In this document: positions 674 through 14,097 of the stretch, piece after piece
Layout: each line of letters starts with the position of its first letter
Numbering within the stretch: position 1 is the first letter of the stretch
Virus record (IMG/VR): IMGVR_UViG_3300013126_004313
Span: 1-22,461 of that record
Origin: a virus
Reading direction: 5' to 3' (one strand)
Length of the DNA stretch: 22,461 nt
Made by a program: the position numbers and the translations under genes
The notes under the pieces: model-generated
Seen by the model: the letters and a program-made list of their open reading frames with translations, nothing else
Told to the model about the DNA's origin: nothing
Database searches by the model: none

Positions 674-1468
674 ATGAAAAAAATAAAAGTATCCCACGAA
701 GTGCCATTTTGCCTACTTACAAAAAGTAGAGAATTTAACGATTATGATTATTGTTTACCCCATTTAATGGATGAAAATGAAGAATATCGCATATTTTTCC
801 AAAATTCAAAAAATGTAGCGCGTTATATTGTAATGGACAATTCACTCCATGAACTTGGAGAAGCATACAATACAGAACGTTTACTACATTGGGTAAACGA
901 ACTTGAACCAGATGAATTTATTGTGCCCGATGTTTGGGAAGATAAAAATGCTTCCGTTAGAAACGCAAAACTATGGTCCCAAATTGAATTACCAGATGGA
1001 GTAATGAAAGTAGCTGTAGTACAAGCAAAATCATACCATGAAGCTGTCCTATGCACACAAGCATACAAAGATTTGGGCTATAAAAAGATAGCATATTCAT
1101 ATGGTGCTTCATATTACAATGAAATGTGCTCCCACCCAAATAAAGACTTGGGGAAAGCAATTGGTCGTTTTATGGTTATCTCTCAACTATTAAAAGATAA
1201 AATTCTAACAGATACAGATAGAGTACATTTGCTTGGAACTGCTTCTCCTATTGAGTTTGGATTATATAACGGAATAAAATGTATAGAATCAATTGATACA
1301 TCAAATCCCATAATGGCTGCAATTGGAGAAATGCCATATACGAATATGGGGTTATCTTCAAAACCACTAGCAAATATGAACAAATATCAAGATGTAAGTT
1401 TGGAGTTTGTAAATGAGGATCTTGTAGAATATAATGTTGAAATGTTTAGAAAAATAAATGGACTCTAA
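674..1468 (+). CDS. dpdA: DpdA-like 7-deazaguanine DNA transglycosylase (TGT family)
   Basis: This is a tRNA-guanine transglycosylase-fold enzyme, most likely the phage DpdA type that exchanges guanine in DNA for a 7-deazaguanine base. In its 264 residues the TGT landmarks appear in order: MDNS (54-57, where TGT has its catalytic DSGG aspartate), VPDVW (84-88), VAVVQA (113-118, like GIVQGG), IAYSYG (139-144), HLLGTASP (185-192, like the MGVGTP loop) and SIDTSNP (206-212), whose D208 fits the TGT nucleophile. The C-terminal CxCxxC zinc site of tRNA-TGTs is absent, as expected for phage DpdA. The queC, queD, queE and folE genes follow directly, which supports DNA modification. I chose ATG 674, preceded by gtt as at many starts here, over the in-frame TTG at 638 that would overlap the upstream gene. 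A tRNA substrate is the main alternative. Confidence 0.82.
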   Translation: MKKIKVSHEVPFCLLTKSREFNDYDYCLPHLMDENEEYRIFFQNSKNVARYIVMDNSLHELGEAYNTERLLHWVNELEPDEFIVPDVWEDKNASVRNAKLWSQIELPDGVMKVAVVQAKSYHEAVLCTQAYKDLGYKKIAYSYGASYYNEMCSHPNKDLGKAIGRFMVISQLLKDKILTDTDRVHLLGTASPIEFGLYNGIKCIESIDTSNPIMAAIGEMPYTNMGLSSKPLANMNKYQDVSLEFVNEDLVEYNVEMFRKINGL

Positions 1469-1826: not shown

Positions 1827-1979
1827 ATGGAAAAAGAACAATTTGAAGAATACCGCAAACTTTGGAAAGCAGAATGGTATAATCATTGGAGACTCTTGGA
1901 TATTGACTTTGAAGCTTATATGTTGATGAGAGGATTACCAAAAGAAGAATTTGATAGATTAAATAAAGAAGAAGAATGA
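1827..1979 (+). CDS. Small charged protein, unknown
   Basis: This 50-residue ORF (MEKEQFEEYRKLWKAEWY...) starts 2 nt after the previous stop. Its TGA overlaps the ATG of queC (ATGA). It is strongly charged and predicted helical, with several Trp and Tyr residues (WKAEWYNHW). The tight fit between two good genes is the main evidence that it is real. Function is unknown. Confidence 0.6.
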   Translation: MEKEQFEEYRKLWKAEWYNHWRLLDIDFEAYMLMRGLPKEEFDRLNKEEE

Positions 1980-2800
1980 AACACGTTGTAATTTCCCTAT
2001 CTGGAGGAATGGATTCCAGTACACTTTTGTTACGTTGTCTAAAAGAATACGACACGGTAACAGCAATTTCATTTGATTATGGACAAAAGCATCGAGTTGA
2101 GCTTGAACGCGCTCAATCGTTGGTAGGTTATTTAGGCAACAATGATATCGGGATTGCTAATATGGTACGTTATCGCCAAATTAAATTAGATGGTTTAACA
2201 GATTTACTTAACTCAGCACTTGTAGCAGGTGGAGATGATGTACCTGAAGGACATTACGCTGAAGAAAACATGAAAGCAACCGTTGTTCCAAACCGAAATA
2301 AAATATTTGCCTCTATTGTACAAGCAGTTGCACTTTCAATTGCAGATAAAACAGGTGAACAATGTGATATTGCAATGGGAATCCATGCAGGTGATTTTTC
2401 GATTTATCCTGATTGTAGAGCTGAATTTAGAGATGCAGATGATGTTGCTTTCCGTTTAGGAAACTGGGGGGCTGAAAAAGTAGGCTATTTTACCCCATAC
2501 ATTGATGGTATGAAATTTGATATCCTTAAAGATGGAGAAAAATTATGTGAAGAACTTGGATTAGACTTTAACGAAGTATATAAACGTACAAATACTTCAT
2601 ATAAACCAATTCAAATCATTTCATCATCCGGAGACAATTGGTACTCAGACTATAAATCAGCAAGTTCAGTTGAGCGAGTAGAGGCATTTATTAAATTAGG
2701 TCGCCCTGATCCTGCACCATATGCAGACGAAACAGGACCCGTAACATGGGATTTTGTTGTAGAACAAGTGAGCAAAGTTTTGGAAGAAAATGGAAAATAG
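1976..2800 (+). CDS. queC: QueC-like 7-cyano-7-deazaguanine (preQ0) synthase, zinc site lost
   Basis: This is an ATP-dependent enzyme of the PP-loop family. QueC converts 7-carboxy-7-deazaguanine (CDG) through the amide ADG to preQ0. Its 274 residues show the PP-loop SGGMDSS (9-15), FDYGQKHRVEL (33-43), VVPNRN (103-108) and YPDCRAEF (144-151), all typical of QueC. In ordinary QueC the C-terminal region carries four zinc-binding cysteines (SCY...CGxCxxC). Here the matching positions read Ser208, Asp225, Ser228 and Ser231, while the following VERVEAF is retained, so the zinc site is gone. The protein is also longer than the usual 220-235 residues. It could still make preQ0 or could stop at ADG. 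It sits in one operon with queD and queE. Confidence 0.87.
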   Translation: MKHVVISLSGGMDSSTLLLRCLKEYDTVTAISFDYGQKHRVELERAQSLVGYLGNNDIGIANMVRYRQIKLDGLTDLLNSALVAGGDDVPEGHYAEENMKATVVPNRNKIFASIVQAVALSIADKTGEQCDIAMGIHAGDFSIYPDCRAEFRDADDVAFRLGNWGAEKVGYFTPYIDGMKFDILKDGEKLCEELGLDFNEVYKRTNTSYKPIQIISSSGDNWYSDYKSASSVERVEAFIKLGRPDPAPYADETGPVTWDFVVEQVSKVLEENGK

Positions 2801-2834: not shown

Positions 2835-2969
2835 ATGGCAAAGAAAAATAAAATTACAGTTTGTACAGGTATAGGAGCAAATATGTTCTTCCCTGAATAT
2901 GTTACTATTGAACTTCCGGTTAAGATAGACACCGAAATTAAAAAACCAAAAACAAAGAAAAATGGGTAG
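2835..2969 (+). CDS. Small basic protein, unknown
   Basis: A 44-residue ORF lies between queC and queD, ending in a lysine-rich tail (KKPKTKKNG). It overlaps the start of queD by 8 nt. ATG 2835 is preceded by aaagtt, the leader seen at several genes here. An in-frame ATG at 2790 would give 59 residues and overlap queC by 11 nt, so the start is uncertain. Function is unknown. Confidence 0.5.
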   Translation: MAKKNKITVCTGIGANMFFPEYVTIELPVKIDTEIKKPKTKKNG

Positions 2970-3438
2970 ATATATTAGCACAAAACTATTCGAAAACTAT
3001 TCAGTAGCATTAAGACAATGGAGAGCATCTCACTCACATTGTGAACTATTACATGGCTACGCTTTAAAATTTAAAGTATGGTTCGCATCAAACGAACCAC
3101 TAGAGGAAAACCAGCTAGACGATATGAACTGGATTGTAGACTATGGTGGTTTCAAACCTGCACCTAAAGGAAACGGTTTAAAAGATTGGATGAACTATAT
3201 GTGGGATCATACATTGTTGATTGAAAAAGATGATCCATATTTAGATTTTTTTGAATCTGCAGCAATGGAAGGTTTATGTGCACTTCGTGTTATGGATAAA
3301 ATGGGAGCAGAGTCATGTGCAAAACTAGTGTACGATAAATTTAATGAAGTTCTATCTAAAACAGATGGTGGAAGATGCAAATGTATTAAAGTAGAATGTT
3401 TTGAAAACGATAACAACAGTTCAATATATGAAGAATAG
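2962..3438 (+). CDS. queD: QueD-like 6-carboxy-tetrahydropterin synthase
   Basis: QueD converts dihydroneopterin triphosphate, the FolE product, to 6-carboxy-5,6,7,8-tetrahydropterin, the second step towards 7-deazaguanine. The 158-residue protein has the PTPS/QueD layout: ASHSHC (22-27) with the likely catalytic Cys27, LHGYAL (30-35) where the canonical motif is HGH, WIVDYGGFK (57-65, like the usual v-DF), WDHTLL (81-86) with the Asp-His pair, and a C-terminal VECFEN that provides the conserved Glu. The third zinc histidine of HGH is Tyr33 here. His24 or His26 could take over as ligand, and I recall an SHC...HGYAL pattern in some bacterial and phage homologues. It overlaps queE by 11 nt. Confidence 0.85.
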   Translation: MGRYISTKLFENYSVALRQWRASHSHCELLHGYALKFKVWFASNEPLEENQLDDMNWIVDYGGFKPAPKGNGLKDWMNYMWDHTLLIEKDDPYLDFFESAAMEGLCALRVMDKMGAESCAKLVYDKFNEVLSKTDGGRCKCIKVECFENDNNSSIYEE

Positions 3439-4207
3439 AATAGAAGATTACAATAAAACACTACCAATAGTAGAACTATATCGATGCGTTCAATCTGAAG
3501 GTAGCCGCTTTGGTCGACCAACTATAGCGGTTAGAACCACTGGATGTACGCACAGGTGTTATTTTGGCGAAGGTGGTTGGTGCGATTCATGGTATACTTC
3601 AATCCACCCAGAAAAAGGTACATTTACCTTTAACGACATTATTAAAATATACGATGAAAATCCTCATATCAAGGAAATGATGTTAACAGGTGGTTCACCT
3701 ACAATTCATCCTGCACTTGTAAATGAACTTACACATTTTGCACATGAAAGAGACATCCTTATTACCATCGAAACTGAAGGTAGCCATTTTGTACCTACAG
3801 ATTATCCTATTGGGTTGCTATCTATCAGTCCGAAATTTAGTAATTCTGTACCCGTACTTGGTGTTCTTACGCCTCAAGGAAAAGTGGTGGACCAAAAAAT
3901 GATTGACCTGCATAACAAAAACAGACTTGATGTTCTTGCTATTAGACAAATGATGGATTACCATACAGATTACCATTATAAACCTGTAGTTAACCCTATT
4001 GAGATGCCTGATGTGTGGGTTCAAGTTGAAGCCTTTAGACTAGCACTTGGCATTCCAAAAGATAAAACATATATTATGCCTCCGGGAGACACAAGAGAAG
4101 AACTTATTAGAGTATACCCTATGATCTTTGATTTTTGTGCTGAACATGGTTATAACATGACTGGTAGAGACCACATTATTGCATTTGATACTAAAAGAGG
4201 AGTTTAA
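3428..4207 (+). CDS. queE: QueE-like 7-carboxy-7-deazaguanine synthase (radical SAM)
   Basis: QueE is a radical S-adenosylmethionine enzyme that rearranges carboxy-tetrahydropterin to 7-carboxy-7-deazaguanine (CDG). The 259 residues begin with a QueE-like VQSEGSRFGRPTIAVRTTGC. The 4Fe-4S ligands are probably Cys40, Cys44 and Cys52 (CTHRC then GGWCDSWY), a CX3CX7C spacing instead of CX3CX2C. Further motifs are MLTGGSP (the GGEP loop), IETEGS (like ETNGT) and SISPK. I chose ATG 3428; the in-frame TTG at 3401 would bury 27 more bases in queD. It overlaps queD by 11 nt and is followed by a micro-ORF and thioredoxin. The spacing of the cluster is a QueE subtype feature rather than damage, because WCD is intact. 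Confidence 0.88.
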   Translation: MKNRIEDYNKTLPIVELYRCVQSEGSRFGRPTIAVRTTGCTHRCYFGEGGWCDSWYTSIHPEKGTFTFNDIIKIYDENPHIKEMMLTGGSPTIHPALVNELTHFAHERDILITIETEGSHFVPTDYPIGLLSISPKFSNSVPVLGVLTPQGKVVDQKMIDLHNKNRLDVLAIRQMMDYHTDYHYKPVVNPIEMPDVWVQVEAFRLALGIPKDKTYIMPPGDTREELIRVYPMIFDFCAEHGYNMTGRDHIIAFDTKRGV

Positions 4208-4840: not shown

Positions 4841-5539
4841 ATGTCAGAAAACAAACGTAGAAAAAACCACACCGATCTAGAGTGTGTACAAATGGGTTTT
4901 GCAAATGGAGTTGCACCTGGTTTTCCATTAACTGAACAAGAAAAATGGAAAATGGTAGATGAAGCTGAAGAAGCTTATGGTAAATTTTTAGATGCACTTG
5001 GAGTGGATTGGAGAAATGATCCTAATTCTGAAGATACTCCTCGTCGTGTAGCCAAAGCATATGTATTTGATTTATTTGCTGGCCGCTATAATGCAATGTC
5101 TGATATTACATCTTTCCCATCAGACGGATACGATGGTATAGTGATTGAAAGAAATATTCCATTAACTTCAATGTGCTCTCACCACCACCAAACAATTGGA
5201 GGAGTTGTTCATATTGGCTATGTTGTTGGAGAAGGCGGACGTGTAATTGGACTTTCTAAACTAAACCGCATTGTAGAGCACTTTGGCCGTAGAGGAGCAA
5301 TCCAAGAACAATTAACCTCAGCTATTCATCAAGCAGTAAGTAAAGTATGTGAAGGTAATCGTGGAGTAATCGTTACAACAGTAGCAACACACAATTGTGT
5401 TTCATGTCGTGGTGTTAAACATCAAGGCGCTTCCATGGTAACAACCAAAGCATCAGGTGTGTTTATGGAAAATGACAATCAAGCTCGTAAAGAATTTTTC
5501 GACTCATTAAAAATCAACAATGGTGGACACCAAATCTAA
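4841..5539 (+). CDS. folE: GTP cyclohydrolase I
   Basis: FolE turns GTP into dihydroneopterin triphosphate, the first step of both folate and 7-deazaguanine synthesis. The 232 residues contain DTPRRVAKAY (65-74), SMCSHHHQTIGG (110-121) with zinc ligands Cys112 and His115, GRVIGLSKLNRIVEHF (133-148), QEQLT (155-159), and HNCVSCRGVKHQGASMVTT (184-202), whose Cys186 is the third zinc ligand. All catalytic landmarks of type I enzymes are intact. I chose ATG 4841; the upstream in-frame TTG at 4787 would overlap the previous gene by 53 bases. Its 3' end overlaps the phosphoribosyltransferase start by 20 nt. Together with queD, queE, queC and dpdA it completes the pathway from GTP to modified DNA. 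Confidence 0.93.
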   Translation: MSENKRRKNHTDLECVQMGFANGVAPGFPLTEQEKWKMVDEAEEAYGKFLDALGVDWRNDPNSEDTPRRVAKAYVFDLFAGRYNAMSDITSFPSDGYDGIVIERNIPLTSMCSHHHQTIGGVVHIGYVVGEGGRVIGLSKLNRIVEHFGRRGAIQEQLTSAIHQAVSKVCEGNRGVIVTTVATHNCVSCRGVKHQGASMVTTKASGVFMENDNQARKEFFDSLKINNGGHQI

Positions 5540-5927
5540 AATATATTATAGTTGGAGTGAAATAGAGGAACTAGTTGATCTTCTATGTGAACAAATCATA
5601 AAATCAGGACAACAAATTGAACATATATTTGGTATGCCAAGAGGTGGTCTTATTCCTGCTGTTATGATCTCGCATAGATTGGATATCCCGATGACACAAT
5701 CCCCATATCTACCTAACACTTTAATTGTAGATGATATTTGTGATAGTGGGGAAACATTCAAAGATCTATACCTTGAATACGCAAATGCAAAATTTGCCTG
5801 CCTACATTTTAAACCCCATACCTCAGTGTTCAACCCAGACTTTACCAATAAATTCTTCTCAGATGACTGGGTTGTATATCCTTGGGAAAAATTAGATTCG
5901 GAAACAATACAAGATTACTTAAAATGA
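5520..5927 (+). CDS. Purine-type phosphoribosyltransferase-like protein
   Basis: A type I phosphoribosyltransferase (PRTase) fold. The enzyme class joins a base to PRPP to give a nucleotide. Among its 135 residues are GMPRGGLIPA (38-47), the PPi loop seen in xanthine/guanine PRTases, and TLIVDDICDSGET (67-79), the PRPP-binding signature. It is shorter than Gpt (about 152), so the hood region is reduced and the base is unclear. It overlaps folE by 20 nt and is followed by an ATGA overlap. An attractive inference is that it salvages the guanine that DpdA releases during base exchange, returning it to GMP. A general purine-salvage role is the simpler alternative. Confidence 0.8.
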   Translation: MVDTKSKIYYSWSEIEELVDLLCEQIIKSGQQIEHIFGMPRGGLIPAVMISHRLDIPMTQSPYLPNTLIVDDICDSGETFKDLYLEYANAKFACLHFKPHTSVFNPDFTNKFFSDDWVVYPWEKLDSETIQDYLK

Positions 5928-6720: not shown

Positions 6721-8571
6721 ATGTACCAAGCAGTTTATTATAGCCGCCAACCAGGCGATGATCAGTACCATTATTATCTACGTGATGATAAAAAAGGCAT
6801 TAGCTGCTTTCAATATTGGCCCACATTATATAAACTAGATGAGGAAGGAGAATTTGAAACCCTATTTGGAGATAGATGCTCCCCCATTTCAGGTAAAGTA
6901 GATAGAAAAGACCCTACCATACTAGAAAAAGATATTGATCGTGAACTGGTTTTACTACGCGATGTATATTATAAAACAGATGATATGCCCTCGTATCACA
7001 ATGTCGTTTACCTTGATATTGAGATTGAAATTTTGGGTGCTCTTACCCCATACACTATTAAAGAGGCAAACGCAGAAATAACTGCAATTGCTCTTATTGA
7101 TGTTTCAACCAAGGAAAAGATATGCTTTATCTTGGATAAACAACAAAACATCCCAACAACAACTTCGGATGGAAAACAAGTTGTATCTTGTGTTAGTGAG
7201 GATGATCTTATTCGCAAATTTTTAAACAAATGGGAACAAATGGATCCTACCATTGTTGTAGGATACAATAGTGATTTCTTTGATATTCCATATTTGTACT
7301 ATAGAATTAAAAAGCGTTTAGGGGATGAAGTATTTCGTTTATCTCCAATTGGGAAAATTGAGGAAAACATTTACAATCCAAATTCTCCAATTTCAATTGG
7401 ACTGGTTAACAGTTTGGATTATATGTTGTTGCTTCGCAAGTATATTATGAAGGAAGAACCATCATATAAATTAGGTGATATTGGTTTAAAATATGCTAAA
7501 CTAGGTAAAATTGAATATAATGGTGGTTTAGATAAGTTATTTAAAGAAGACCCAAACAAATACATCGAATATAACATTCGAGATGTTGAAATTATAGAGG
7601 CATTAGAGGAAAAACAGAAATTTATCGAATTAACCATTTTGATATCCCACCTATGCCATACCCCATACGAATCCATCTACTACAATACAGCACTAAATGA
7701 AGGTGCTATATTAACGTATCTAAAACGTAAAAATATAGTAGCGCCAAATAAACCAACCACCACAAATCCAACCATTAGAGAACTGGAAGTTGGTGATGTT
7801 GTTCAACAACAGCGTGGAACACCTACGATTGATGGAACAATATATAGTTTTGAGGATGATAAAACAGTAATCGTTAAAACATTATCAAACAAGTTTATTC
7901 AACGTAATGTTAAAACAATCCGTAAAAAGGAAGGATATAGTGGAGGATATCTCTTGGACCCAGTACCTGGGTTATATAGTTGGTTGATAAATGCCGATTA
8001 TTCTTCGTTATATCCTTCTATAATCCGTACATTAAATTTAGGGATAGAAACACTAATTGGGCGAGTTAAAATCCCAAACCAAAACTATAATGCATGGTGT
8101 AGCCTTGTTGAATTAGAGGAACTAGAACCCACTCAGGTAGTAACTATAGAAAAACTAAACAAAAAAACATATAAAATAGTTGAGGGAACTACCACAGCCC
8201 AAAACCTCTTACACATAATTAAAGAAAACAACCTCATCCTTTCCGCAAATGGAACATTATATGATTCATCTAAAAAAAGCATAGTTGCTGAAATATTAGC
8301 AGATTGGTTTGATTTAAGGGTAGAATATAAAAAACTAATGAAAGAAGCATATAATAGCGGAGACACTGAAAAAGGGAAACTATATAATCAAAAACAACAT
8401 AGTATAAAAATACTCCTCAATGCAGTTTACGGTGGATTCGCCATTAACTCATTTAGATTTACAGACGGATATAAAATGTTATCTTCATCTATTACTACAA
8501 CTGGTCAAAGATGCATACAAGAAACTATAAAATATGCAAATGAACTAATAGAAAAAGAATATTTAAAATAA
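6721..8571 (+). CDS. 43A: DNA polymerase family B, N-terminal part (exonuclease, palm, fingers)
   Basis: First part of the replicative T4 gp43-type DNA polymerase. In 616 residues it shows the 3'-5' exonuclease motifs YLDIEIE (ExoI, about 97-103), VGYNSDFFDIPY (ExoII, about 180-191) and YNIRDVEII (ExoIII, about 284-292). Polymerase motif A is NADYSSLYPS (about 423-432) and motif B is the helix ending KILLNAVYGGF (about 563-573). It stops at 8571 before motif C, which lies in the gene at 9584. With the 300 residues there, the sum is 916, close to T4 gp43 (898). So this is a split polymerase, not a damaged one; the two chains must assemble. ATG 6721 is preceded by aaaagtt. Confidence 0.92.
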   Translation: MYQAVYYSRQPGDDQYHYYLRDDKKGISCFQYWPTLYKLDEEGEFETLFGDRCSPISGKVDRKDPTILEKDIDRELVLLRDVYYKTDDMPSYHNVVYLDIEIEILGALTPYTIKEANAEITAIALIDVSTKEKICFILDKQQNIPTTTSDGKQVVSCVSEDDLIRKFLNKWEQMDPTIVVGYNSDFFDIPYLYYRIKKRLGDEVFRLSPIGKIEENIYNPNSPISIGLVNSLDYMLLLRKYIMKEEPSYKLGDIGLKYAKLGKIEYNGGLDKLFKEDPNKYIEYNIRDVEIIEALEEKQKFIELTILISHLCHTPYESIYYNTALNEGAILTYLKRKNIVAPNKPTTTNPTIRELEVGDVVQQQRGTPTIDGTIYSFEDDKTVIVKTLSNKFIQRNVKTIRKKEGYSGGYLLDPVPGLYSWLINADYSSLYPSIIRTLNLGIETLIGRVKIPNQNYNAWCSLVELEELEPTQVVTIEKLNKKTYKIVEGTTTAQNLLHIIKENNLILSANGTLYDSSKKSIVAEILADWFDLRVEYKKLMKEAYNSGDTEKGKLYNQKQHSIKILLNAVYGGFAINSFRFTDGYKMLSSSITTTGQRCIQETIKYANELIEKEYLK

Positions 8572-8636
8572 TGTATTAAAGACGTAGATTACACATATGT
8601 ATAATATATATAATAGTAACCTATAATCTTTATCAT
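8572..8636 (+). other. AT-rich spacer between polymerase part and endonuclease gene
   Basis: A 65-nt very AT-rich spacer with alternating TA runs (around 8595-8615). It has no TTG-N20-TATATT promoter and no clear hairpin terminator. It is far too short to hold a group I intron core. Confidence 0.5.
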
Positions 8637-9587
8637 ATGCCTAAAAAATTAACTACTGAACAATTTATTGAAAGAGCAAAAAATAAACATGGGGATAGAT
8701 ATGATTATTCTGAAACCACATATAATGGTAATACACAAAAAATTAAAATAATATGCAAAGAACACGGCCCGTTCCATTGCAACCCTTCAGACCATTCAGT
8801 TAATGGATCGGGATGTCAAAAATGTGCTGGGATAGGGTATTTTGAAGATCCACTAGAGTATTTTATTGAAAGATCAAATGTAATACATAATAATAAATAC
8901 GACTATTCAAAATTTATTTACACCACAGCCAAAACCAAATCTACTGTTGTGTGTCCTACTCACGGTGATTTTCAAATCCATCCAAACAACCATTTAAACA
9001 ATCATGGATGCCCGGGATGTAGGGGAAGTAAAATATCCCAAACCAGAATATCCCACAATACTGATGAAAAAATATATGAAAAATTAAATAAAATCCACAA
9101 CAACAAATACACATACCCACCCCAACCAGAAATAAGTAGAAATAATAAGCATAAATTAAAGATAATATGCCCCATTCACGGTGCATTTACACAATCATTT
9201 TTAAACCATTTTTATAGGGGATGCGGGTGTGAAAAATGTGGTAATAATAAAATATCCAAAGGAGAAAAAAGAATAGAAGAATTTCTTATGAAACATAGTA
9301 TACCCCATAGTAGAGAATATACTTTTGAAGGATGCATAAACGATAAAACAGGCAAAAAATTACTCTTTGACTTCTACCTCCCAGAACACAAAACATGTAT
9401 AGAATATCAAGGTAAACAACATTTTGAAGAAAGTGAATTTTTTAAAATAAGAAGTGGAGATTTAAAAGAATATCAAAGAAGAGATGAAATTAAAGAAAAA
9501 TTTTGTATATTAAATGATATAAATTTGATCCAAATAACATATAAGCATTATCATAAAATCCCAACAATATTAACCCAATTCATATGA
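8637..9587 (+). mobile_element. Homing-endonuclease-like gene inside the DNA polymerase locus
   Basis: A 316-residue protein that is probably a free-standing homing endonuclease. Residues 1-200 hold three similar units of about 55 residues. Each opens with a helix (FIERAKNKHGDRYDYS, FIERSNVIHNNKYDYS, IYEKLNKIHNNKYTYP), then CxxHGxF, then GCxxC, a zinc-ribbon type DNA-binding repeat. Residues 206-316 look like a Vsr-type PD-(D/E)XK nuclease: GEKRIEEFL, FDFYLPEHKTCIEYQGKQHFE with the catalytic Asp/Glu/Gln-His positions, and a later K..C...LIQI. It splits the polymerase between motifs B and C. Its TGA overlaps the ATG of the second polymerase part (ATGA). The coding sequence is more AT-rich than its neighbours, consistent with transfer. 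Confidence 0.8.
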
Positions 9588-10486
9588 AATTTAATGTACA
9601 GGAATCAAATAAACACGTAGCTGGATCAGATACGGATTCATTGATTGTAGCTCTAGAAGGTATTCTTAAACACACTATAAAAAACTACGAAACCACACCA
9701 GACGAAAATATTATTGAACATGTAAAAAAACTTCAACAGGAAATAGGGGAAAAATTAAACACATACCAAAACACAATTGCATCTAAGTGCTTTAACACTA
9801 CAGAACACTACCTGGACCTCAAACCAGAATATATTATTAAAAAGACATATTGGGCTGGAAAAAGACGATATGCCCAATACATAATAGATAAAGAAGGCAT
9901 CCCTGTTGAAGAATTAGATATAAAAGGATTGGACATTATGAAATCCAATTTCCCTCCATACTTTAAAAACTTTGGAGAAGAGCTTATCAAAAGCATATTG
10001 TTTGGTAAAAAGAAAGAAGACGTTGATAAATTTGTAATGGATTTTAAAGATTCAATGCAAACTATAGAATGGATAAAATTGCTCAAACCAACAGGACTTA
10101 AAAAATTGGATGAATATATTGAGCGTAAACCTATGGCTGGTGAATTATTTTCAAAATTAAAATTGAAATGCCCCATCAATACAAAAGCAGCTATCATCTA
10201 TAATGATTTCCTTCGACATAAAAGTCTACAACGTAAATTCCCCGAATTTACCATTGGAGACAAAATGTATATTGCGTATTTGAAACCAAACCCATACAAA
10301 ATAGATGTTATAGGTTATAACGGATACAATGATCCAACAGAAATAACAGAGTTGATCAACAAATATATTGACCGTGATGGGTTATTTGACAGCGTAATCA
10401 GAAATAAATTGGAAACAGTATACGATGATATTAACTGGTCACTTAATTTGAACCCATACAAATCAATATTTTTTAACTTTAGTTGA
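9584..10486 (+). CDS. 43B: DNA polymerase family B, C-terminal part (motif C and thumb)
   Basis: Second part of the gp43-type polymerase, 300 residues. It opens with HVAGSDTDSLIV (residues 11-22), the motif C whose two aspartates bind the catalytic metals. KKTYWAGKRRYA (about 84-95) matches the KKRY-type primer-grip motif that follows motif C. The C-terminal half corresponds to the thumb. The C-terminal PCNA-interacting tail could be NPYKSIFFNFS, which resembles the hydrophobic ends used by T4 gp43 to bind the clamp; this is inference. The start is ATGA-coupled to the endonuclease gene. The N-terminal residues MKFNVQESNK would follow directly on ELIEKE of the upstream part in an unsplit gene. 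Confidence 0.9.
   Translation: MKFNVQESNKHVAGSDTDSLIVALEGILKHTIKNYETTPDENIIEHVKKLQQEIGEKLNTYQNTIASKCFNTTEHYLDLKPEYIIKKTYWAGKRRYAQYIIDKEGIPVEELDIKGLDIMKSNFPPYFKNFGEELIKSILFGKKKEDVDKFVMDFKDSMQTIEWIKLLKPTGLKKLDEYIERKPMAGELFSKLKLKCPINTKAAIIYNDFLRHKSLQRKFPEFTIGDKMYIAYLKPNPYKIDVIGYNGYNDPTEITELINKYIDRDGLFDSVIRNKLETVYDDINWSLNLNPYKSIFFNFS

Positions 10487-12161: not shown

Positions 12162-12165
<4 letters not shown>
11803..12165 (+). CDS. Small protein with AT-hook-like N-terminus
   Basis: A 120-residue protein. The start carries RRGRPAKGES (7-16), an AT-hook-like core. The remainder, with IVGYYSSFSNALNSIAKQKF (about 68-87), looks like a small alpha/beta domain that I cannot name. It is the first gene of the groES-groEL operon, and its stop overlaps the groES ATG by 4 nt. 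The RGRP start and the promoter-proximal position are shared with the gene at 4564. DNA binding, perhaps regulatory, is an inference. Confidence 0.6.

Positions 12166-14097
<1,932 letters not shown>

Follow-up and report, generated by a model that had tools for sequence, protein, structure and literature searches.

A conserved subfamily of QueC proteins without the hallmark zinc site in phages, bacteria and marine archaea

The QueC protein of an aquatic phage, encoded on a viral genome fragment, lacks all four cysteines that bind zinc in this enzyme and, by sequence comparison, belongs to a conserved subfamily from which the hallmark zinc site has been lost. It is an unreported form of a known enzyme and not a new reaction; no description of zinc-less QueC in phages or archaea was found in the literature searched. 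From sequence, conservation and genomic context we infer, with good confidence, that a metal-free turn has replaced the zinc site, and that the subfamily is active and still converts CDG through ADG to preQ0.

QueC has been described as a zinc-binding enzyme, and its zinc motif is used for recognising QueC proteins. The gene under study lies in a 22,461-nucleotide stretch of a virus record (IMG/VR IMGVR_UViG_3300013126_004313), referred to here as the window. Reading the codons against an alignment confirmed the claim of the earlier note on this DNA that all four ligands are gone:

1976..2800, plus strand: zinc-site-free QueC of 274 amino acids (PF06508, E 2e-38, 132.4 bits against a cut-off of 22)
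2597..2599, plus strand: Ser208 at the first zinc cysteine, SCY having become TSY (codon read and alignment)
2648..2650, plus strand: Asp225 at the second zinc cysteine (codon read and alignment)
2657..2659, plus strand: Ser228 at the third zinc cysteine (codon read and alignment)
2666..2668, plus strand: Ser231 at the fourth zinc cysteine (codon read and alignment)

In the alignment with zinc-type QueC, CGxCxxC fell on D225-Y-K-S228-A-S-S231 (DYKSASS), and the tyrosine of the SCY motif was retained as Tyr209. The SGGMDS P-loop, YGQKHxxE and Lys180 are intact and so, as the same note had stated, are the flanking VPNRN, YPDC and VERVEAF motifs. The protein passes the gathering score of PF06508, which covers the broad QueC family, and falls under the cut-off of the NCBIfam equivalog TIGR00364 (131.5 against 150.3 bits). 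With canonical QueC (PF06508 cluster 1, including the B. subtilis protein 3bl5 and that of E. coli) it shares the fold, the SGGxDS, YxQxHxxE, VPxRN and YPDC motifs, the equivalents of K165 and Y189, the SCY tyrosine and a gene context of QueD, QueE and FolE. It differs from canonical QueC in having S208, D225, S228 and S231 in place of the C(x)8CxxCxxC zinc motif, in being about 50 residues longer and in scoring below the equivalog cut-off. The zinc motif, termed the hallmark of the canonical cluster in the accessible portion of PMC13329287, is likewise missing from the LarE and GMP synthase clusters of PF06508, but these, unlike the window protein, also lack the other QueC motifs. All four cysteines were kept in the seven zinc-type phage QueC proteins aligned with the window protein (those of Dp-1, HCTV-1, a Seuratvirus, a Rosebush-type phage, Cellulophaga phi3:1, a schizotequatrovirus and Campylobacter phage CPt10). 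QueC of the Rosebush/Hedgerow type, from dPreQ0 phages, shares with the window protein HYAEDNM..TVVPNRN, YPDCR and an adjoining transglycosylase gene; it differs in keeping SCY and CGRCGTC, and the two are about 34% identical.

The predicted structure of the protein (pLDDT 84.4) matched B. subtilis QueC best (3bl5; Z 18.6, rmsd 3.1, 197 residues aligned), with 2pg3 at Z 17.6. At the position of the former zinc knuckle, the model shows a short hairpin (residues 212-225) leading into the last long core helix (229-241). We propose that this is a metal-free turn in place of a structural zinc site: D225, S228, S230 and S231 would cap the helix and hold the turn, the D225/S228/S231 segment securing the loop through hydrogen bonds and helix capping as zinc did. 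The role of zinc in QueC would be to hold the lid and the essential Tyr, with no part in catalysis, and both ATP- and ammonia-dependent steps would be retained. In principle, zinc could be bound elsewhere in the protein. The cysteines previously put forward as alternative ligands were excluded by residue variation and by the zinc-type rows of the alignment: position 21 holds a cysteine in 87 of the 122 viral rows and a leucine in all ten gammaproteobacterial rows, positions 130 and 191 both vary in archaeal rows, and C147 is the YPDC cysteine, present in 48 of 48 zinc-type rows as well.

Viral contigs were scanned with the window QueC, and the best 80 of 593 confirmed relatives were taken. The zinc-less site was common to all 80 loci. 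In an alignment of 82 rows, made of the window, a second copy of it (L081) and these 80 other loci (best 80 of 593), residues S208, Y209, D225, S228, S230, S231, V232, E233 and R234 were invariant. A second scan with a more distant query, the Rosebush-type QueC, gave 80 loci, half of them (40) with CxxCxxC and 40 with the zinc-less motif as in the window. In the enlarged zinc-less viral set, the D..S..S pattern occupies the last three site positions in 122 of 122 rows. Because the motif is fixed in every one of these rows, the change is a conserved trait of the subfamily, and decay or sequencing error could be ruled out; the earlier argument that a patterned loss is not random decay is thus borne out by the fixation of S/D/S/S across viral relatives. 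Residues Y35, Q37, H39, E42, R107, Y144, D146, C147, K180 and Y209 are kept in all 122 rows, and the canonical motifs are invariant save for P145 (121 of 122). According to the accessible part of a 2026 study (PMC13329287), alanine mutants of Y35, R99, Y131 and Y189 of E. coli QueC lost queuosine in vivo. The invariance of all catalytic residues in the 122 viral rows argues against an inactive phage QueC that would act as a scaffold only, with the host enzyme supplying preQ0. Such a division of labour has a parallel in hosts that may supply 7-deazaguanine precursors to phages encoding only DpdA, as put in the available text of PMC6884629; yet in 38 cellular genomes no strong QueC but the zinc-less form was found (see below), and we judge an inactive or scaffold protein to be very improbable. 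For another phage enzyme, the Gat-QueC of 9g, PMC6884629 reports that queuosine was not restored in an E. coli queC deletion even though the protein made a base derived from preQ0.

The genes around queC are those of a 7-deazaguanine pathway:

677..1468, plus strand: putative DpdA-like transglycosylase (phrog_19058), the probable base inserter, from its predicted fold
2962..3438, plus strand: QueD, PTPS family (PF01242, E 6e-11; phrog_2389)
3401..4207, plus strand: QueE radical SAM enzyme (phrog_2076, E 1.6e-45; TIGR03365, E 8e-15, under its cut-off)
4841..5539, plus strand: FolE, GTP cyclohydrolase I (PF01227, E 4e-43)
5520..5927, plus strand: phosphoribosyltransferase-like protein adjoining FolE (PF00156, E 2.7e-9)

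The QueE reading frame as listed starts with TTG, and an internal ATG start is possible. The 677-1468 protein gave no match to the TGT profile PF01702, and this profile matched nowhere in any of 13 related viral contigs. Its model (pLDDT 95.8) has the TGT/DpdA fold: Foldseek returned TGT (E 2.7e-8) and the DNA preQ0 insertase DpdA (7ui4, E 5.5e-7), and comparison with 7ui4 gave Z 17.5 and rmsd 3.1 over 230 aligned residues. The invariant residues of the family (D54 N55, D85, Q116, G187 and D207) follow each other in an order that, we presume, resembles that of the TGT active-site residues. A family member was present in 13 of 13 long related viral contigs and, in 67 of 80 loci (best 80 of 593 relatives), within the stretch retrieved for queC and its surroundings. 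Judging from the model, the protein is probably a DpdA-like transglycosylase that inserts the base into DNA. With FolE, QueD, QueE and QueC in the same window, the virus would therefore belong to the known phages that modify their DNA with 7-deazaguanines. The DpdA-like protein would place the preQ0 made by QueC in the DNA of the phage and, no QueF being seen in this lineage, the DNA base would be preQ0 itself.

The same neighbourhood bears on the idea that the window QueC has become a ligase that deazaguanylates protein or nucleic acid, like Cap9 or QatC. The QueC model does resemble QatC (Z 16.9) and Cap9 (Z 16.7), a likeness that is expected because the fold is shared. However, both of these proteins keep the zinc cysteines and sit in defence operons, with QatA/B/D or a CD-NTase for partners, as far as the available portions of PMC13329287 and PMC13279940 describe them, whereas the window protein lacks the cysteines and is adjoined by the whole preQ0 gene set (FolE, QueD, QueE) and the transglycosylase. 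On these grounds a Cap9- or QatC-like role was rejected as exceedingly improbable.

Other features of the window were recorded in passing. QueD (2962-3438) has Leu/Phe in place of the first and Tyr in place of the third of the histidines that normally bind zinc (HGY versus HGH), and an invariant His just ahead of the catalytic Cys; the Tyr and this His are found in 52 of 52 rows. The HGY form is common to Cellulophaga phi3:1 and a Thiotrichales locus (L196). The changes in QueD and QueC are not tied, since phi3:1 QueC keeps its zinc cysteines. A B-family DNA polymerase, recognised by eye and by partial matches, occupies two reading frames at 6721-10486 (6721-8571 and 9584-10486) with an HNH-like-looking frame between them, and GroES- and GroEL-like genes were read from the list of open reading frames at 12162-14097.

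The product of the zinc-less enzyme could be approached through the genes that accompany it. QueF is a nitrile reductase that converts preQ0 to preQ1, and its substrate must be preQ0. Among viral contigs carrying zinc-less QueC, QueF scored above cut-off in 6 of 13 long ones and in 4 of 26 further ones, and the catalytic motifs of the enzyme were complete in all ten proteins (ESKSxKLY for NADPH, a C-x6-D pair, FHE). QueF was not found above cut-off in the remaining 29 of the 39, many of which are fragments, and none was seen in the window lineage, including its long relatives G001 and G002. Matches under cut-off, in G022, G026 and cellular genomes, were left uncounted; the one checked, in the archaeal locus L208, was FolE. 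A single PF06508 protein was present in each of the 13 long contigs, among them the first six with QueF, so this check covers 6 of the 10 QueF-positive phage contigs. A phage pathway that goes on through QueF to preQ1 needs the nitrile and therefore not ADG. Host preQ0 could feed the phage QueF.

Beside QueF lies a PF00551-type formyltransferase, in Flavobacterium phage immuto and in all nine other QueF-positive loci. This arrangement suggests a formylated preQ1 base in the QueF-positive, immuto-type phages, where QueF and the formyltransferase would carry preQ0 on to preQ1 and its formylated derivative. A 2023 paper on further phage 7-deazaguanines reportedly describes a formylated dPreQ1 modification and its enzyme. 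The immuto-type cluster (L090:4590-7516) has in a row the DpdA-like protein, the formyltransferase (PF00551), a small AAA kinase-like protein and a two-domain QueF; the AAA kinase-like protein also occurs in seven of the nine other QueF loci. Nothing on DNA modification of immuto was found in the accessible parts of the literature searched.

Cellular genomes contain the zinc-less form as well. From a scan of genome contigs with QueC, the best 80 of 410 confirmed loci were taken, and the zinc motif was absent from 79 of them. The taxa included marine group II archaea, Cysteiniphilum, Thiotrichales and Legionella gresilensis. Nine of the 80 loci (L186-L194), with 60-72% identity, resemble phage contigs caught up in metagenome bins; another ten, at 55-58% identity, belong to gammaproteobacteria or to a closely related MAG; and 60, at 42-51%, are mostly from marine group II archaea, one being labelled Neomarinimicrobiota. 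The marine group II and Cysteiniphilum/L. gresilensis proteins are the nearest cellular relatives among these best 80 of 410, at about 43-58% identity. In six rows of the Cysteiniphilum type the SGG motif reads as missing, the rows being trimmed to a late Met; in one of them, L199, it is present upstream. The sole zinc-type protein among the best 80 of 410, L261, has TCY and CGRCGSC.

One strong PF06508 match was found in each of 39 cellular genomes searched, zinc-less in 38 and zinc-type in the one that holds L261. With one strong match likewise in each of the 13 long viral contigs, the presence of a further QueC of zinc type alongside the zinc-less one was rejected as an explanation; as many of the archaeal and some of the bacterial genomes are MAGs, a second copy could be missing from them. 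QueF and TGT were above cut-off in all 8 gammaproteobacterial isolates, the archaeosine-type TGT in 25 of 28 archaeal genomes, and TGT in 36 of the 39 genomes overall. The queuosine and archaeosine routes both go via preQ0, as given in the accessible text of PMC13329287. Pathway genes adjoin queC here too: the archaeal L208 has the order FolE-QueE-QueC-MsrB-QueD, and in the bacterial L196 and L199 QueE and QueD lie beside it. In some marine archaea and bacteria that depend on the normal product, the zinc-less form is thus the sole QueC, so that the zinc site is probably dispensable and not the switch to another DNA base.

These results bear directly on the proposal that loss of the zinc site stops QueC at ADG, which the phage would then put into its DNA. 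The total and fixed loss of the ligands is compatible with such a stop, as is the window itself, in whose lineage no QueF was seen and where nothing demands preQ0. It is unsupported, however, because the zinc-less protein is the only strong QueC in cells with QueF and TGT or with an archaeosine TGT; it is also the sole QueC in the six QueF-bearing phages checked. A further objection comes from Campylobacter phages CP220 and CPt10, in which, according to the accessible part of PMC8306585, all dG is replaced by dADG. CPt10 QueC keeps all four zinc cysteines and is unusual at other positions, with YGSNH and one extra residue where others have YGQxH, and FPDC where they have YPDC; its group thus departs from YxQxHxxE. 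Six viral contigs likewise encode a YGSxH form that has the additional residue, and all of them keep the zinc cysteines:

L082:6001-6660: YGSxH-type QueC of CPt10
L125, L130, L131, L133-L135: YGSxH-type QueC of viral contigs

The YGSxH form is accordingly offered as a better candidate marker for an ADG-making QueC, the correlation coming from one measured phage. We regard a halt at ADG as quite unlikely. Of the earlier note's interpretation, the complete loss of ligands, its patterned and fixed character and the identity of the protein as QueC stand, but the halt at ADG finds no support, given the phage QueF, the cells with preQ0-dependent pathways and the cysteines of CPt10. The observation which that note had itself named as decisive against it, a zinc site missing from ordinary preQ0-forming QueC, is what we found as far as genome content shows.

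The residues that replace the cysteines differ between groups. Phage and gammaproteobacterial rows have SDSS, whereas SSSD was read in 47 of 60 archaeal rows, the others having SSTD, SNTD, SHTD and the like; these readings come from a rough anchored pattern that mis-anchors 8 of the 122 viral rows and most zinc-type rows, and it was used for the archaeal mix only. As both quartets contain one Asp, a hard metal ion (Mg2+ or Ca2+, for instance) might hold the fold in place of zinc; but three of the four ligands would be hydroxyls and the archaeal quartet varies, which leaves this an unlikely arrangement beside the metal-free turn. Some archaeal copies also differ from the window protein in carrying an MsrB fusion. 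In L205 (2457-3641) one frame encodes zinc-less QueC together with a methionine sulfoxide reductase domain (SelR, PF01641), whereas in L208 QueC and MsrB are neighbouring genes. A length of 362-391 amino acids was noted for 28 of the 60 QueC frames in the archaeal set, of which L205 was the one scanned for a fusion.

Both forms of QueC occur in an 11-genome genus set around L. gresilensis. Two of these genomes have zinc-less QueC only, one has a zinc-less and a canonical QueC at different places, and the other eight have a single QueC of canonical score. The site was read in 6 of the 12 proteins, with four cysteines in L274, L266 and L269 and S,D,S,S in L275, L276 and L277. From this distribution, it looks as if one form stands in for the other. 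The L. gresilensis TGT, listed with one stop, proved on reading to have an intact frame of 384 amino acids. QueF of this species (L292:1361-2608) lies within a 424-amino-acid open frame whose start resembles a MerR-type regulator.

In an 84-row tree built without the site columns, zinc-less rows from phages, gammaproteobacteria and archaea grouped together with L261 (support 100). L261, which is the sole zinc-type protein in the subfamily, fell inside the zinc-less group. This position and the differing replacement residues make two losses of the site likely; an AU test with three long zinc-type rows left out did not reject a single zinc-less clade (p 0.41). In a 151-row tree, with the site columns kept and no cellular rows, the zinc-less rows of viruses all lay to one side of a single branch. 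The selective force may have been zinc scarcity or oxidation of the zinc-thiolate site in sunlit water; at least one archaeal zinc-less QueC from there carries a fused methionine sulfoxide reductase.

Taken at its broadest, the tentative picture is that QueC works without its zinc site, which was lost in one subfamily, possibly twice and with different residues, SDSS in phages and gammaproteobacteria and mostly SSSD in marine group II archaea, and that the metal-free enzyme supplies preQ0 to archaeosine and queuosine synthesis and to phage DNA. If so, annotation should not demand the zinc motif of a preQ0 synthase. The findings also caution against taking loss of the site as a sign of ADG as a new DNA base. 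A widespread and conserved zinc-less subfamily amounts to a natural experiment on what zinc does in QueC, and the L. gresilensis group, with genomes that have both forms or the zinc-less form only, opens this question to a direct in vivo test.
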